NCBI RefSeq assembly: GCF_003583925.1
Contig: NZ_QYCN01000012.1
Location: forward strand, 116,533 to 180,532
Source of the DNA: Hymenobacter rubripertinctus
GTDB taxonomy: Bacteria; Bacteroidota; Bacteroidia; Cytophagales; Hymenobacteraceae
DNA: 64,000 bases
Direction: 5' to 3'
The notes under the pieces were generated by a model. It did no database searches, was not told the origin of the DNA, and saw only the letters and a program-made list of their open reading frames with translations. The position numbers and the translations under genes were made by a program. The first letter of the stretch is position 1, and the number at the start of each line of letters is the position of its first letter. This document shows, in pieces, positions 11,969-57,230 of this stretch.

Positions 11969-12098
11969 CTTTACCGGCTTCGTACCTTCTGTGGTGCGGC
12001 CCCTGGCCGTCCGACCAGGTTCCAGGGCGTGGCACCACCCCTGCTTACCACCGCTCACAAAATCCGCGCAATCCCGAAAATCCGCGGCAATCCGTGAT

Positions 12099-12106
12099 TA
12101 CCTTTG
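12099..12106 (+). promoter_or_regulatory. Candidate -7 element before rlmD-like gene
   Basis: TACCTTTG fits TAnnTTTG exactly; no good TTG lies 19-20 nt upstream. If used, transcription would begin within a few nt of the GTG at 12112. Confidence 0.4.
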
Positions 12107-12111
12107 TGCCC

Positions 12112-13521
12112 GTGAGGAAATCCGTTAAAAACATCCCCGCGGAGCTGCTCCGCGAAGTCGAAATTACCAACATGGTGGCCGAGGGCAAGTGCCTGGTGCG
12201 CCGCGAGAATCTGGTGATATTCGTGACCCAGGTAGCGCCCGGCGACGTGGTGGACCTGCGCGTGACCAAGGCCAAGAAGAACTTTCTGGAGGCCGTGCCC
12301 ACCAAGTTTCATAAGTATTCCGAGCTGCGCGTAACGCCGTTCTGCGAGCATTTCGGCACCTGCGGGGGCTGCAAGTGGCAGCACTTGGGCTACGAAACCC
12401 AACTCAAGTTCAAGCACCAGCAGGTGGCCGACACCTTGCAACGCATCGGCAAAGTGGCCCTACCCGAAATCCTGCCCATCACGCCCTCGCCCGACCAGAC
12501 CTATTACCGCAACAAGCTGGAATACACCTTCAGCCACAACGGCTGGCTGACCAACGAGCAGATTGCCAGCGGCCACGATTACGAGCGGCGCGTGCTGGGC
12601 TTCCACACCCCCGGCCGCTTCGATAAGATTCTGGACGTGAACCACTGCTGGCTCCAACCCGACCCGAGCAACCAGATTCGGCTGGCGGTGCGCGACTATG
12701 CCCTGGAGCACGAGCTGCCCTTCAACAACCTCGTGACCCAGGAGGGCTTTTTGCGCAACCTCATCATCCGGACGGCCAACACCGGCGACCTGATGGTGAT
12801 TTTGCAGTGCTACTACGCCCACGACGCGCTGGTGCCGCTACTGGATTTCCTGGCCGAGCGGTTCCCGCAAATCACCTCCCTCAACTACGTGCTCAACGAA
12901 AAGGGCAACGAAACCTTCAACGACCTGGAGGTGGTCTGCTACCGGGGCGAGCCACACATCCACGAGGAAATGGAAGGCCTGCGCTTCCGCGTGGGGCCAA
13001 AATCGTTCTACCAAACCAACTCGGAGGGCGCCTACAACCTCTATAAAATCACCCGCGACTTCGCCCAGCTTACCGGCTCGGAACTGGTGTACGACCTCTA
13101 CACCGGGGCCGGCACCATTGCCAACTTCGTGGCCCGGCAGGCCCGGCACGTGGTGGGCGTCGAGTACGTGGAGTCGGCGGTACAGGACGCCTACCTCAAC
13201 TCCGAAATCAACGGCACGACCAACACCGAGTTCTACGCCGGCGACATGAAGGACGTGCTCAACGCCGAGTTCATTGCCAAGCACGGCCGCCCCGACGTCG
13301 TCATCACCGACCCGCCCCGCGCCGGCATGCACCCCGACGTGGTGGCCCGCCTGCTCGAAATGCGCGCCCCCCGCATCGTCTACGTCAGCTGCAACCCCGC
13401 CACCCAGGCCCGGGATTTGGAGCTACTGGATGAAGCGTACAGCGTGGTGAAAGTGCAGCCCGTGGATATGTTCCCGCACACCCACCACATGGAGAACGTG
13501 GTGCTGCTGGAGTTGCGGTAA
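12112..13521 (+). CDS. rlmD: 23S rRNA (uracil-5-)-methyltransferase, RlmD/TrmA family
   Basis: Transfers a methyl group from SAM to C5 of a uridine in rRNA. It has the family's iron-sulfur cysteine cluster (CEHFGTCGGCKWQH near residue 80, with a further Cys in NHCWLQ), the SAM-binding segment VYDLYTGAGTIANFVA, the TDPPRAGMH motif and the catalytic Cys in VYVSCNPATQARDL. The protein is 469 residues from GTG at 12112 (MRKSVKNIPAELL); the in-frame GTG at 12094 adds six residues but precedes or overlaps the likely -7 element. Which uridine is modified cannot be told from sequence: Bacteroidota usually carry one or two members annotated RlmD. Confidence 0.85.
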   Translation: MRKSVKNIPAELLREVEITNMVAEGKCLVRRENLVIFVTQVAPGDVVDLRVTKAKKNFLEAVPTKFHKYSELRVTPFCEHFGTCGGCKWQHLGYETQLKFKHQQVADTLQRIGKVALPEILPITPSPDQTYYRNKLEYTFSHNGWLTNEQIASGHDYERRVLGFHTPGRFDKILDVNHCWLQPDPSNQIRLAVRDYALEHELPFNNLVTQEGFLRNLIIRTANTGDLMVILQCYYAHDALVPLLDFLAERFPQITSLNYVLNEKGNETFNDLEVVCYRGEPHIHEEMEGLRFRVGPKSFYQTNSEGAYNLYKITRDFAQLTGSELVYDLYTGAGTIANFVARQARHVVGVEYVESAVQDAYLNSEINGTTNTEFYAGDMKDVLNAEFIAKHGRPDVVITDPPRAGMHPDVVARLLEMRAPRIVYVSCNPATQARDLELLDEAYSVVKVQPVDMFPHTHHMENVVLLELR

Positions 13522-13527
13522 CCACCT

Positions 13528-13562
13528 ATCATCCTGAGCGGAGCGAAGGACCTTATCACGCT
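13528..13562 (+). repeat. Half copy of REP-like palindrome (left arm)
   Basis: Carries ATCCTGAGCGGAGCGAAGG and continues CCTTATCACG, identical to the left arm of the full element at 13869 except at its outer end. It lies just 5' of the GIY-YIG gene; no right arm follows. Confidence 0.9.
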
Positions 13563-13578
13563 CAGACATGTCGTTGCT

Positions 13579-13860
13579 ATGTCCTACTATGTGTACATCA
13601 CTACAAACCCAGCGAGGAAAGTTTTGTACATCGGCATTACCAACGACCTTGCAAATCGAATGGCTCAGCACTATGCTAATCGTGGTTCAGCCCAAACTTT
13701 TGCAGGCAAGTACTTCTGTTATAATCTGATCTACTTTGAAGAGCATCAGAATAGCAAAGCTGCTATTGCCCGTGAGAAGGAATTGAAGGGCTGGACGCGA
13801 GCAAAGAAAGAAGCATTGATTGCAGTTGACAACTCTAACTGGGTCTTTCTAGAAACGTGA
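13579..13860 (+). CDS. GIY-YIG nuclease domain protein
   Basis: A 93-residue protein that is a single GIY-YIG domain of the URI/UPF0213-like type. YYVYITT...VLYIGITNDLANRMAQHY carries the Tyr pair, the catalytic Arg and the His, and the C-terminal part has the metal-binding Glu region (NSKAAIAREKELKGWTRAKKEALI). The gene is visibly more AT-rich than its neighbours, with many A/T third positions, unlike the GC-rich genome, which suggests transfer. It is bounded on both sides by arms of a REP-like palindrome, within 20 nt of each end. Known relatives include uncharacterised endonucleases; a role in mobility of the flanking repeat is inference. Confidence 0.88.
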   Translation: MSYYVYITTNPARKVLYIGITNDLANRMAQHYANRGSAQTFAGKYFCYNLIYFEEHQNSKAAIAREKELKGWTRAKKEALIAVDNSNWVFLET

Positions 13861-13868
13861 ATATTTAC

Positions 13869-13957
13869 CTGTCATCCTGAGCGGAGCGAAGGACCTTATC
13901 ACGCTTGAACGTATCGTTTACACGTGATAAGGTCCTTCGCTCCGCTCAGGATGACAG
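13869..13957. repeat. Full REP-like palindrome, 35-bp perfect arms
   Basis: Arms 13869-13903 and 13923-13957 are perfectly complementary, separated by a 19-nt loop. The core is GTCATCCTGAGCGGAGCG. Translation of the right arm gives DKVLRSAQDD, a false N-terminal extension of the next gene. Confidence 0.95.
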
Positions 13958-13973
13958 ATGTACACCATACCAC

Positions 13974-14348
13974 ATGGACTACACCAACGACCCCGAACTG
14001 AACGGCAAATACCTCGGCACCATCACCAAGGATTTCGCCACCGTGTCCGATACGCTCAGCGAAGCCTCGTCGCAAATCCGCAAGCGCGACATTTCGAAGT
14101 ACCCCATCTTCGTGTTTGCCCGCCAGGAAGTACCACTGGGCGGCCTGCTGGTAAATGCCGATGAAATGGACCTGGAGTGGCACGTTTTCGCCAGCTACCT
14201 GGAGTTGTTTGTGCAGCAGGGCATCATCAGCGAAGAAGGCATCGAAGCCTTCCAAAGCACCTACCGCGACGCCAATGAGTACTGCTGCCTGTTCGTGCTC
14301 GACGAGGAGTTTACCAACTTCGTATATATCCCCTACCCGGAAGACTAA
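13974..14348 (+). CDS. Conserved small acidic protein, unknown function
   Basis: A 124-residue, acidic protein (MDYTNDPELNGKYLG ... VYIPYPED). No signal peptide or membrane segment. It reads like a cytoplasmic Bacteroidota protein with a compact alpha/beta fold (IFVFARQEVPLGGLLVNADEMDLEWHVFASYLELFVQQGII). I do not recognise its function. The ATG at 13974 is chosen because everything upstream in frame is translated palindromic repeat. It ends exactly one base before the inverted-repeat element that separates it from convergent thiL. Confidence 0.75.
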   Translation: MDYTNDPELNGKYLGTITKDFATVSDTLSEASSQIRKRDISKYPIFVFARQEVPLGGLLVNADEMDLEWHVFASYLELFVQQGIISEEGIEAFQSTYRDANEYCCLFVLDEEFTNFVYIPYPED

Positions 14349-14504
14349 ATCACAGATGTTGCTGATGTTGCTGATGAAAAAGGATTCGTTCTGACGCTGG
14401 ATTTGTTCGACAATCAAATTTGCTGACTTCAGAAATCTGTCGTTGAACGAATCTACTAGCAGAACGAATCCATTTTCATCTGCAACATCTGCAACATCTG
14501 TGAT
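14349..14504. repeat. 156-bp inverted-repeat element
   Basis: Left arm 14349-14393 and right arm 14460-14504 are near-perfect complements (about 45 bp). They begin ATCACAGATGTTGCTGATG and end CATCTGCAACATCTGTGAT. It starts right after one stop codon and its last base is the first base of the convergent thiL stop codon. Internal 9-nt doublets (TGTTGCTGA) are present. Confidence 0.9.
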
Positions 14505-15523
14505 TAAAAATGGCTAAACCCCTGCGCCTTCAACGGCACAGGCTGGCCGGCTTTGGTGATGAGGTTGGCCCCTTCGCTCTTGTCCACCATGTGGCCGATG
14601 ATGGTGATGTCGGGGTGGTTTTTGAGCTTGGCGTGGTCGGCGAGCGGGACGGTGAACAGCAGCTCGTAGTCTTCGCCGCCGTTGAGCATGCACATGATGG
14701 GGTCGAGGTTGAATTCTTCGGCCACTTCCAGCGTGGGGTTGGCAATGGGCAGGTTCTCGGTGAAGATGCGCGCGCCGGTGCCGCTGGCCTGGCAGAGGTG
14801 GAGCACCTCGGAAGCCAGCCCGTCGGATACGTCAATCATGCTGGTGGGCGTCACGCCCAGGTCGCGCAGCTCGTGGATGACGTCCATGCGGGCCTCGGGA
14901 CGGAGCTGGCGCTGGAGCACGTAGGGATACTTATCCAGTTCAGGCTGGGTTTCGGGGTCGGCCTGCCAGGCCAGTTTTTCGCGCTCCAGCACCTGCAAGC
15001 CTAAGTAGGCCCCGCCCAGGTCGCCGGTTACGCAGAGCAAATCGTTGGGGCCAGCCCCGCTGCGGCGCACAGCCTGGCCGGCCTCGGCCTGGCCCAGGGC
15101 CGTAATGCTGATGGTGAGGCCGGCGCGGCTGCCGGTAGTGTCGCCGCCCACTAAGTCCACGTTGTAGGCTTCGCAGGCCAGCTTTACGCCTTCGAAGAGC
15201 TCTTCCACGGCTTCCACCGTGAAGCGGGCCGGAATGCTGACCGCCACCACAATCTGGGTGGGCAAGGCATTCATAGCGGCAATGTCGGACACGTTCACGG
15301 CCACGGCTTTGTAGCCCAGGTGCTTAAGGGGGCAGAACGTAAGGTCGAAATGCACGCCTTCCACCAATAAGTCGGTGCTGATGACGAGCTCCTGCCCGGC
15401 GGCCGGAGCCAGAATGGCCGCGTCGTCGCCGATGCCGAGGATGGTACTGGGTTGGGTGAGCTGCACGGTTTCCTGAATCCGACGGATCAGGCCGAACTCA
15501 CCTACTTGGTCAAGGGGCGTCAT
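14504..15523 (-). CDS. thiL: Thiamine-monophosphate kinase
   Basis: Phosphorylates thiamine monophosphate to thiamine diphosphate, the last step of cofactor synthesis, in the cytoplasm. The 339-residue protein shows the AIR-synthase-like fold motifs: GEFGLIRRI at the N-terminus, GIGDDAAIL, STDLLVEGVHFD, the NVSDIAAMNA segment, VGGDTTGS, VTGDLGGAYLGL, DVSDGLASEV and GGEDYELLFT near the C-terminus. Start MTPLDQVGEF at 15523 places GEFGLI at the usual position; an upstream reading to 15601 adds unrelated residues. No TPP riboswitch or other thi gene is seen nearby. Confidence 0.95.
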   Translation of the reverse strand: MTPLDQVGEFGLIRRIQETVQLTQPSTILGIGDDAAILAPAAGQELVISTDLLVEGVHFDLTFCPLKHLGYKAVAVNVSDIAAMNALPTQIVVAVSIPARFTVEAVEELFEGVKLACEAYNVDLVGGDTTGSRAGLTISITALGQAEAGQAVRRSGAGPNDLLCVTGDLGGAYLGLQVLEREKLAWQADPETQPELDKYPYVLQRQLRPEARMDVIHELRDLGVTPTSMIDVSDGLASEVLHLCQASGTGARIFTENLPIANPTLEVAEEFNLDPIMCMLNGGEDYELLFTVPLADHAKLKNHPDITIIGHMVDKSEGANLITKAGQPVPLKAQGFSHF

Positions 15524-19575: not shown

Positions 19576-19664
19576 TTGTCATCCTGAGCGGAGCGAAGGA
19601 TCTTGTCATGCGAAGACGAATTGCCCTTATCCGATGAGGTCCTTCGCTCCGCTCAGGATGACAA
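19576..19664. repeat. REP-like palindrome between paaB and paaC
   Basis: Left arm begins TTGTCATCCTGAGCGGAGCG and right arm ends CGCTCCGCTCAGGATGACAA; inner parts diverge (ATCTTGTCATG versus CCGATGAGGT). Same family as 13869-13957. Confidence 0.92.
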
Positions 19665-20443: not shown

Positions 20444-20461
20444 GCTGGCGCGATGCGAAGA

Positions 20462-20560
20462 AACGTCATGCAGAGCGAGCCGAAGCATCTCGCGTGTTAA
20501 CGTTGCAAGAGTAACTAAATGTCAGCACGCGAGATGCTTCGGCTCGCTCTGCATGACGTT
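20462..20560. repeat. REP-like palindrome, 35-bp perfect arms, in paaC-paaD gap
   Basis: Arms 20462-20496 and 20526-20560 are perfect complements with the core GTCATGCAGAGCGAGCCGAA and a 29-nt loop; the right arm runs into TTTTTC. Together with the element at 20604 it fills most of the 318-nt gap between paaC and paaD. Confidence 0.95.
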
Positions 20561-20603
20561 TTTCAAGCAAATTCTCCTGAAGCTGTTTAGAAAGTCAAAA
20601 AGT

Positions 20604-20706
20604 CTGTCATCCTGAGCTTGCGAAGCACCTCATCGCGTCCGCACAACTCGGAAAGAAGGTGAAATACGCCCACGTAATAAGGCCCTTCGCAAGCTCAGGG
20701 TGACAG
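20604..20706. repeat. Second REP-like palindrome in paaC-paaD gap
   Basis: CTGTCATCCTGAGCTTGCGA at the left and TCGCAAGCTCAGGGTGACAG at the right pair with one mismatch; inner arms diverge. It is 43 nt from the previous element. Confidence 0.9.
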
Positions 20707-36725: not shown

Positions 36726-36839
36726 GTCATCCTGAGCCTCTCGCGCATCAAGCGAGGGCGAAGGATTTTATCACGTTAGAACGGCTGCATCAACGGCTCG
36801 TTCTAACGTGATAAGATCCTTCGCTCCGCTCAGGATGAC
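36726..36839. repeat. REP-like palindrome with insertion in left arm
   Basis: Right arm CGTTCTAACGTGATAAGATC continuing CTTCGCTCCGCTCAGGATGAC (36799-36839) matches the left arm 36726-36785 except that the left arm has CCTCTCGCGCATCAAGCGAGG where GGAGC-type sequence is expected. The insert itself can fold (CCTCTCGC / GCGAGG). Confidence 0.9.
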
Positions 36840-39189: not shown

Positions 39190-39271
39190 CTGATTGCAGC
39201 GCCCGAATGCCCGAACGGCCCCGGAATCCTAAGGTTCCGGGGCCGTTCGGGCATTCGGGCGCTGCAATCAG
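39190..39271. terminator. Giant 37-bp perfect hairpin between convergent genes
   Basis: Arms 39190-39226 and 39235-39271 are exact complements (core CGCCCGAATGCCCGAACGGC), loop TCCTAAGG. It lies between two stop codons only 96 nt apart and probably terminates both genes. No U-tract flanks it. Confidence 0.85.
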
Positions 39272-56040: not shown

Positions 56041-57126
56041 ATGCTCTCCTTCGCTTCCGTGCCCGCCCCCAGCCGGGCCTACTGGTACTGCCAGGCCCTG
56101 GGCTGGACGCTGTACGCGGGGTTCAACCTGGTGCTGTTTTCCGCGTTTGGCCGGTTTTCCCTCGATTCGGTGGCTATTACGGTGGCCATTGTGCTGCCGA
56201 TAGCGGCGCTTACTCATGCGCTCCGCTACTGTATCCGGGCGCGGGACTGGGCCAGCCTGTCGCCGCTGCCGCTGCTGGGGCGGCTGCTCGTTACCAACCT
56301 GGTATTGTCGGTGCTGAGCCAGGTAATTATCTGGGCCCTGATTTACTGGGTAGTGCGGCCGGCCCCCGACGGGCAGCCCCACGGCTGGGGCCAGTTTGTG
56401 GGCTACGTGCTCAACGTCAACTTCATTCTCTGGCTCTGGGAAGGATTCTACTTCGGCTGGCACTACCTGGGCCGCTACAAGCAGGCCGAGGTGGACAAGT
56501 GGAAGCTGGCCGCCGCCGTGCGGGAAGCCGAAATGCGCACTCTCAAGGCCCAGATCAACCCCCACTTCATGTTCAACGGGCTCAACAATATCCGGGCCCT
56601 GGTGATGGAGGACCCGGCCCGGGCCCGCCACATGATTACCCACCTCTCCGATTTGCTGCGCTACTCCATTCAGCTCAACAGCACCGAACAGGTACCCCTG
56701 CGCCGGGAGCTGGAAATTGTGGAGCACTACCTGGCCCTGGAAGCCATTCAGCTGGAAGAGCGCCTGCACTACTGCCTCGACGTGGACCCGGCCGCCCTCG
56801 ACGTGGCCATTCCGCCCATGACGCTCCAGCTGCTGGTGGAAAACGCCATCAAGCACGGCCTCGCGCCCCGGCCAGCCGGGGGCACCATTCAGCTCACGGC
56901 CCAGCTCAACGACTCCAACACGCTGCACATTACCGTGCGCAACACCGGCCACTACGCCCCTGCCTCAAGCCACCCCGGCGTGGGCGTGCGCAACGCCCGC
57001 GAACGGCTGGCCCTGCTCTTCGGCCCCGCCGCCCACCTGCACCTGGCCAACGACCCGCACACCCCCGATACCGTAGTAGCCCACCTGCAACTGCCGGTCA
57101 GGGGAGAAGTGAGAAGTGAGAAGTGA
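56041..57126 (+). CDS. LytS-type sensor histidine kinase
   Basis: A 361-residue membrane kinase. Four hydrophobic segments fill residues 15-140 (YWYCQALGWTLYAGFNLVLF, ITVAIVLPIAALTHALRYCI, LLVTNLVLSVLSQVIIWALI, VGYVLNVNFILWLWEGFYFG). The His-kinase core follows: KAQINPHFMFNGLNNIRALV with the phospho-acceptor His, and the ATP-binding LQLLVENAIKHGLAPRPAGG and GVGVRNARERLALLFG. It pairs with the LytTR regulator 104 nt downstream. Its last residues (GEVRSEK) and stop codon are made of the heptanucleotide repeat at 57104, so copy-number change would alter the C-terminus. Confidence 0.93.
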   Translation: MLSFASVPAPSRAYWYCQALGWTLYAGFNLVLFSAFGRFSLDSVAITVAIVLPIAALTHALRYCIRARDWASLSPLPLLGRLLVTNLVLSVLSQVIIWALIYWVVRPAPDGQPHGWGQFVGYVLNVNFILWLWEGFYFGWHYLGRYKQAEVDKWKLAAAVREAEMRTLKAQINPHFMFNGLNNIRALVMEDPARARHMITHLSDLLRYSIQLNSTEQVPLRRELEIVEHYLALEAIQLEERLHYCLDVDPAALDVAIPPMTLQLLVENAIKHGLAPRPAGGTIQLTAQLNDSNTLHITVRNTGHYAPASSHPGVGVRNARERLALLFGPAAHLHLANDPHTPDTVVAHLQLPVRGEVRSEK

Positions 57127-57157
57127 GAAGTGAGAAGTGAGAAGTGAGAAGTGAGAA
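57104..57157. repeat. Heptanucleotide tandem repeat (GAGAAGT)n
   Basis: Seven full GAGAAGT units (57104-57152) plus GAGAA. It overlaps the last codons and stop of the kinase gene. Same unit as 1247-1294. Confidence 0.95.
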
Positions 57158-57230
57158 AAGAACGGACGCATGATCTTCCTTGCCAAAGAAAGTCAGTGAA
57201 ATCAATTCAATCAGCGCTAATCAGTGATTC

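Follow-up and report, generated by a model that had tools for sequence, protein, structure and literature searches.

Why should the gene for a very small GIY-YIG nuclease be housed between the arms of a palindromic repeat, and could the nuclease be what inserts or spreads that repeat? The question is raised by a locus in the 64 000-nt stretch of Hymenobacter rubripertinctus DNA analysed here (the window). A gene for a 93-aa protein (13579–13860, + strand) lies between a conserved upstream gene (12094–13521, +), which we take to encode an RlmD-like methyltransferase, and a conserved downstream gene (13974–14348, +) that is present in 118 of 120 Hymenobacter genomes. The gene and its repeats form a unit that starts 6 nt past the upstream stop codon and stops 16 nt before the downstream start. 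It comprises a left REP arm (13528–13560, +; core 13529–13550, followed by CTTATCACG), an inner left segment that runs from the arm to the start codon (13561–13578, +), the nuclease gene, and a complete head-to-head REP palindrome (13869–13957), with the tag TGTC at 13870 and arm cores at 13872–13893 (+) and 13933–13954 (−). An initial annotation had described a 93-residue GIY-YIG gene, more AT-rich than its neighbours, with palindrome arms on either side at distances of 16 nt (left arm to gene) and 8 nt (gene to palindrome). Both distances are correct; the open reading frame encodes 93 aa that match Pfam PF01541 at 64.7 bits (cut-off 22.6), and its GC content is 43.6%, as against 61.3% upstream and 55.2% downstream.

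The 22-nt arm, TCATCCTGAGCGGAGCGAAGGA, occurs with zero mismatches at 13529–13550 (+), 13872–13893 (+) and 13933–13954 (−), which bears out the description of arms on both sides of the gene, and three further mismatch-free copies lie elsewhere in the window. None was found in 100 shuffles, even when two mismatches were allowed. The left arm has lost its tag, GTC being mutated to ATC (ATCATCC in place of GTCATCC), and it is therefore missed by a strict REP detector. The palindrome at 13869–13957 has a folding energy of −48.3 kcal/mol (z −16.5). A palindrome of the same class, whose loop holds no gene, lies at 19577–19663, and a single arm of the class at 36817–36838 (−). A scan of Rfam returned sub-threshold matches only, the best being mir-3688 at 13871–13955 (56.8 bits; gathering threshold 84), which we take as an effect of the long hairpin; identity with a known RNA was rejected on this ground. 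Searches for promoter and terminator patterns found none.

The association of gene and repeat extends far beyond this locus. A tagged REP was defined as GTCA followed by TNNN, 7–16 nt and the complement of TNNN (7–15 nt in the 66-locus set below). In a set of 135 GIY loci, 115 had a tagged hairpin no more than 250 nt from the gene, 88 of them on both sides (87 with a tighter gene boundary), while five rearranged control tags were found at 2, 1, 5, 5 and 1 of the 135. This set leaves out L023–L046, L048, L062 and L066 (Hymenobacter loci, many of them identical to L069–L098), as well as L067 and L068, the most distant homologues, which have no REPs. No strict tagged REP was detected at the remaining 20 loci, and those with none close by include Novosphingobium L099, Sphingobium L105 and L116, R. 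tumorigenes L106 and Sinorhizobium K101 L113. A mixed set of 66 loci was drawn from genome contigs, from plasmid records and from this genome, with the window's own locus kept and L021 and L022 dropped. Of these, 53 had a REP within 250 nt, 47 of them on both sides, and near the gene REPs were 26 times as dense (5.15 per kb) as beyond 500 nt (0.196 per kb). Together with the shuffles, the control tags rule out a chance origin of the repeats.

The initial annotation had proposed scoring how often GIY-YIG genes, as compared with other small genes, lie within 50 nt of an arm, and an enrichment was seen: a tagged hairpin lay within that distance at 50 of 70 Hymenobacter GIY loci, at 2 of 30 loci of the small accessory toxin gene ParE and at none of 30 Y1-family loci. 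Counting all tagged-REP loci, the figures were 64/70, 2/30 and 0/30 (Fisher 3e-27, both controls pooled); controls cut by contig ends (3/30 for ParE, 4/30 for Y1) were kept with approximate coordinates. Loci L177–L216 had been chosen by rank before their REPs were looked at. The best GIY matches across Bacteroidota (L253–L281, the best-scoring loci, one per genome) carried a REP at 25 of 29, on both sides at 14 (aligned coordinates), and ParE at 3 of 25 full-length loci, 5 of 30 having been dropped as contig-cut. The ParE loci and the five rearranged tags also rule out an effect of AT-rich composition. A core-gene control gave 15/30 loci with a REP, two of them on both sides, and is not clean because GIY units are present at four of these loci; a second set of conserved Hymenobacter genes gave 8/29 within 250 nt and none on both sides, so that REPs at intergenic slots are not rare. 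This genome also encodes longer GIY-YIG proteins (frames of 612 and 502 aa; L021 and L022); their 3.2-kb loci, which may not cover both gene ends, showed no tagged REP.

Under the strict definition, homologues with flanking REPs were present in alpha-, beta- and gammaproteobacteria, in a cyanobacterium and in metagenome-assembled genomes (MAGs) named Nitrospirales and Fibrobacter; by eye they were also seen in MAGs named Acidobacteriaceae and Verrucomicrobia, although MAG labels may be wrong. In one homologue search, Hymenobacter contributed 27 of 46 homologous loci. The commonest layout is a single inverted arm pair around the gene (25 loci of this simplest form), followed by a complete palindrome on each side (15 loci), and among 86 two-sided loci the repeats are inverted in 61 and direct in 25 (p 1e-4). 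Two loci are recorded here in their own right. In Planktothrix agardhii (L112) the GIY gene and its REPs lie inside a DISARM cluster, between an MmeI-type gene and drmA, and in one Bacteroidota genome (L298) large tandem-repeat arrays surround several GIY copies.

If the enzyme acts on the repeat, the two might be expected to be matched, and Hymenobacter offers a comparison. Three REP classes, distinguished by outer stem (TCCT, TGCT and TTCC), are found at its GIY loci. Mapped onto the GIY protein tree, REP class changes five times over 65 labelled loci, as against 25 on average and never fewer than 20 in 1000 shuffles. Vertical inheritance at common sites, rlmD among them, accounts for part of this signal. 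Divergent pairs within one genome differ in class in eight of the nine labelled cases and agree in one (G014), nine pairs being few; a same-genome pair that is 100% identical has one common class. In this genome, the window gene is accompanied by TCCT-class repeats, and a 57% identical paralogue (L020, on contig 70) is flanked on each side by TTCC-class palindromes. The mean number of TTCC REPs is 46 for the 10 genomes that carry the TTCC nuclease clade, none of which has zero, as compared with 16 for the other 110, of which 34 have zero (p 3e-4); the clade was taken as 10 of the 13 genomes found, three with only 61–63% identity being counted with the others. High counts also occur without this clade, as in G078 with 161. 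As judged from sequence, then, REP class goes with nuclease clade, and one hallmark of the REPtrons formed by RAYT transposases, a gene flanked by its own REP class, is met by analogy. The initial annotation had compared the locus with RAYT genes and their REPs; the comparison was apt but understated, since the association crosses phyla and REP class tracks the nuclease clade.

To what family do the repeats belong? T or C precedes GTC in 304 of 313 hairpins near GIY genes, which satisfies the tag criterion of the CGTC superfamily; the window palindrome carries TGTC, and the window's left arm has lost the tag. By this tag the repeats appear to be CGTC-type REPs. The base opposite the first A of the stem is T in 215 of the 313 hairpins and C in 91. 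Mostly perfect stems of 8–9 bp with loops of 4–5 nt, often with CCA tails, are found in Azospirillum lipoferum 4B, Sinorhizobium meliloti, Shinella, Rhizobium sp. CIAT894 and Neisseria gonorrhoeae, and an 8–9 bp stem starting AT with a 4–5-nt loop characterizes most proteobacterial copies, whereas the window class has stem mismatches. In the Hymenobacter classes the stem is interrupted, with 4 bp, GA/GA, 2 bp and then a 3-nt loop. As single-stranded DNA this hairpin reaches only −2.2 kcal/mol and shuffles do equally well, so that recognition may need the whole palindrome.

A superfamily of CGTC-tagged REPs, apparently without a dedicated transposase, was described by Di Nocera et al. (2013; PMC3733652). 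Their survey covers dRS3 in Neisseria, the Rickettsia palindromic elements, Wolbachia, many alphaproteobacteria and some Bacteroidetes, and names N. aromaticivorans as a CGTC-REP species, although Novosphingobium L099 is one of the GIY loci with no REP close by. The authors report no tyrosine transposase gene flanked by CGTC REPs, nor any associated enzyme gene, and the word GIY-YIG is absent from their paper. The GIY-linked REPs share with dRS3 and with RPE-4 and RPE-6 of Rickettsia the TGTC/CGTC tag and the occurrence of head-to-head dimers; the GIY loci of S. meliloti, A. lipoferum and Neisseria, all named in 2013, mostly have the short stems and loops just described, from which the Hymenobacter classes differ by their interrupted stem. 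The term GIY is likewise absent from the main text of a 2025 REP survey (PMC12306157). Literature searches gave no link between GIY-YIG and REPs among the matches listed, and a text search with TCATCCTGAGC gave nothing that looks related among its listed matches; most subscription papers and bioRxiv preprints were outside their scope, and an unseen report is possible.

Most copies of the repeat have no gene. The pattern GTCATNCNGAGCNNNNCGAAGNA matches this genome 69 times forward and 69 times in reverse, a balance that fits head-to-head dimers; the reversed control pattern has no match. Eighteen palindromes of this genome, the window's own included, have 39–54 nt between their arms, typically beginning CCTTATCACG; having been retrieved with a head-to-head query, they cannot decide whether that orientation predominates. 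The sequences just inside the left arms had been described as alike, and the likeness is real and wider than first noted. AACGAGTCGTT is present with at most two mismatches in 14 of the 18 palindromes, the window's own among them, and when compared with 19 GIY units that have a left arm it gave a mean of 3.84 mismatches, as against a mean of 5.33 and a minimum of 4.74 in 500 shuffles. As AACGAGTCGTT was picked from the palindromes, only the test on GIY units is independent. In several of these units, the inner left end of gene-less palindromes recurs directly before the start codon, and in the window the segment at 13561–13578 resembles the loop of gene-less palindromes. The gene-less palindromes thus look like a GIY unit minus its gene, a likeness of sequence.

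Comparison of orthologous sites shows that gene and repeats come and go together. Next to the RlmD-like gene, 22 loci could be compared with the window site, and GIY is present in four, all with arms. The 18 GIY-less loci have no strict REP and hold other DNA, often with small ORFs. A gene in the same place without the repeat would have counted against the proposal of the initial annotation; none was found among the 22. L149, at the same place as L024, has degraded arms only. At the second site, L020 and its two palindromes form 556 nt between two conserved genes that are 45 nt apart in the nearest relative (G054). No GIY homologue was found there in the 29 other loci compared, and in several relatives a palindrome without a gene is all that is present; its class varies and is TTCC in one (L312). 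At the third, A. lipoferum 4B has palindrome, gene and palindrome between sufB and sufC, and the same interval in A. ramasamyi, A. oryzae, Azospirillum sp. B510, A. thermophilum and A. brasilense shows no GIY match and no tagged REP; in Shinella sp. PSBB067 it holds a different GIY/REP unit. Occupied and empty orthologous sites of the kind expected of an insertion sequence or MITE pair are therefore at hand. In genome G480, two diverged copies (L289 and L290) are homologous from outer REP end to outer REP end, give or take a base or two, in unrelated flanks. Inspection by eye of L100, L289 and L290, where the intergenic DNA is too diverged for exact joints, revealed no target-site duplication. 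Two GIY-less loci (L160 and L169) have an insert after the RlmD-like gene that starts with a partial REP arm (TGTCATCCTGAACGC and TATCATCCTGAGCGC), perhaps a remnant. The interval 13522–13973, together with L147–L176, is an accessory hot spot that holds different small AT-rich inserts in relatives.

Since gene and repeats are jointly absent from relatives at two sites, the enzyme is a candidate mover of the REP family. We think it probable that gene and palindromes are one mobile unit, REP–GIY-YIG gene–inverted REP, analogous to the RAYT REPtron with another enzyme. As in REPtrons, a small gene lies between tagged imperfect palindromes of its own class, a genome has several classes each with its own enzyme, and gene-less copies far outnumber complete units. 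REPtrons have an HUH/Y1 enzyme and a GTAG tag, whereas the GIY unit has a nuclease of ∼93 aa and a [CT]GTC-AT tag; as neither an HUH/Y1 gene nor a GTAG end is present, the arms carrying GTCAT, the unit is not a REPtron in the strict sense. Gene-less palindromes and the gene-bearing unit have their terminal arms and inner ends in common, like MITEs and an autonomous parent, but no target-site duplication has been seen and the parent would encode a hydrolytic nuclease rather than a transposase.

How might such a unit move? The protein would recognize REPs of its own class, folded as hairpin or cruciform, by the GTC tag and the imperfect stem, and would nick them as Slx1- or UvrC-like nucleases do branched DNA. 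Strand joining would have to come from host repair, since it is not expected of a hydrolytic nuclease itself; starting at the cut ends, repair synthesis or template switching could place copies of the unit, or of the short form that lacks the gene, at new intergenic positions. The gene-less palindromes would then be non-autonomous copies, and the GIY-YIG nuclease the missing dedicated enzyme of the CGTC-tagged REPs. Cutting and mobilization by the nuclease are inferred, no activity having been shown, and the insertion or spreading of repeats by it, which the initial annotation also suggested, is likewise an inference. The general form of this proposal, that a minimal GIY-YIG nuclease is the dedicated, transposase-free mobilizer of the CGTC REP superfamily across phyla, by structure-selective cutting, host repair and a clade-specific stem, goes further than the single mobile unit, and we put it forward tentatively, as a real possibility that we stop short of favouring.

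Structure-selective cutting followed by repair copying fits the data; nevertheless, homing into REPs explains much of the same data. Free-standing GIY-YIG homing endonucleases are known from the Seg type of phage T4, and such an enzyme might target the REP palindrome and be copied by repair into its loop, the REPs themselves being spread by other means. Like a Seg gene, the GIY unit has a single intergenic GIY-YIG gene that is present or absent between relatives, and homing would account for left arm, gene and right arm as the commonest layout, for the resemblance of the sequence before the start codon to the loop of gene-less palindromes, and for the pairing of nuclease with cognate REP; at the L020 site, several relatives do have a palindrome without a gene, one of the same class (L312). 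It accounts less well for the complete palindromes on both sides of the gene, for the loci within REP arrays, or for the partner, a multi-copy palindrome and not one gene; and the 93 aa include no separate DNA-binding domain. In addition, Y1 genes are not near these REPs, and we know of nothing else that spreads them. At the three compared sites, GIY-less relatives mostly lack the cognate repeats too, so that the unit seems to have arrived whole and not into an older REP, and this favours the whole mobile unit. We consider homing unlikely, though it remains the alternative to be taken most seriously.

The protein itself bears on a different explanation. No PF01797 (Y1) match was found in a Pfam search of the 93 aa, and PF01541 is matched by 32 of 32 family members at E ≤ 0.001. 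Among 104 proteins (L113 and L114 left out), Y6 is conserved in 100, Y17 in 102, R27 in 103, E66 in 103 and N85 in 104; all five, and G19, are present in the window protein, and we assume for Y, Y, R, E and N the catalytic roles that they have in I-TevI and UvrC. AlphaFold gives a mean pLDDT of 96.7 across the 93 residues, and the model predicts a bare catalytic domain with no extra DNA-binding part. The best structural match, and the only one with E < 0.001, is the UPF0213 protein 1zg2, followed by Slx1, then UvrC, with I-TevI lower down; by sequence, 1zg2 and 1ywl are the only solved relatives at E 0.01. These single-domain proteins of UPF0213/YhbQ type are similar in size and fold, but most REP-linked proteins carry a C-terminal motif, REKxLKxW-x-R-x-x-K. 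Estimates of dN/dS are ∼0.04, 0.07 and 0.04 in three Hymenobacter pairs with measurable dS, two other pairs being saturated, and the nuclease is under purifying selection. A search for defence systems (PADLOC) gave weak matches only, the best at 16 bits.

Slx1 is a structure-selective nuclease that acts on branched DNA. With this as the nearest fold of known function, and with purifying selection, a domesticated host nuclease that trims or resolves REP cruciforms could be envisaged, kept near REPs by regulation or selection and moving nothing. REPs also persist without the gene: the 21 of 120 Hymenobacter genomes in which no GIY homologue was detected (E 1e-5; one of them, G110, assigned by elimination) hold a median of 34 forward matches, as against 64 in the others (p 0.011). 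REP number is therefore not upheld as a strict consequence of the gene, and this persistence counts against strict dependence in the mobile-unit reading as well. Host use nonetheless sits poorly with a gene found patchily, in 99 of the 120 genomes, as several paralogues in the same genome (at most 13, equal to the number of candidates that were scored) and with stops in some copies, and the empty sites and unrelated insertion sites look like those of a mobile gene. We regard it as improbable, less likely than homing.

Less plausible still is that REPs are merely hot spots for small accessory genes, with the GIY gene as ordinary cargo. Other small AT-rich ORFs do occupy the rlmD slot of relatives, and the L020 slot holds gene-less REPs of several classes; but those other rlmD inserts have no strict REPs, ParE is near REPs at only the few loci given above (2/30 and 3/25), and cargo would not be expected to match REP class to nuclease clade. 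Finally, mobilization by an HUH/Y1 (RAYT) transposase, with the GIY gene incidental, can be set aside almost entirely: PF01797 is matched in 83 of 120 Hymenobacter genomes (82 over the curated cut-off), but Y1 as the linked enzyme was rejected because no tagged REP lies within 350 nt at any of the 30 Y1 loci, and the 2013 survey reports no tyrosine transposase gene with CGTC REPs on its flanks (PMC3733652).

The GIY-YIG nuclease is thus a candidate answer to what mobilizes CGTC REPs. If this is correct, mobility of palindromic repeats has arisen at least twice, through the unrelated enzymes HUH and GIY-YIG, and many of the genes now annotated as ‘GIY-YIG nuclease family protein’ gain a role. 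It offers a small, expressible enzyme candidate for the CGTC REPs of several phyla, with a built-in test of specificity in the swapping of REP classes between paralogues of one genome.

Other repeats were noted in the window. GTCAT-tagged palindromes with other stem sequences lie at 20461–20561 (GTCATGCAGAGC...) and 20604–20706 (GTCATCCTGAGCTTGCGAAGC...), so that several REP classes coexist within 64 kb. Immediately after the conserved downstream gene, at 14348–14505, is a 64-nt inverted repeat (84% complementary, 30-nt loop) without the GTCAT tag, and at 39190–39271 a 37-nt inverted repeat without mismatches encloses an 8-nt loop. An identical short tandem repeat of GTGAGAA units occurs at 1246–1300 and, 56 kb away, at 57096–57160.
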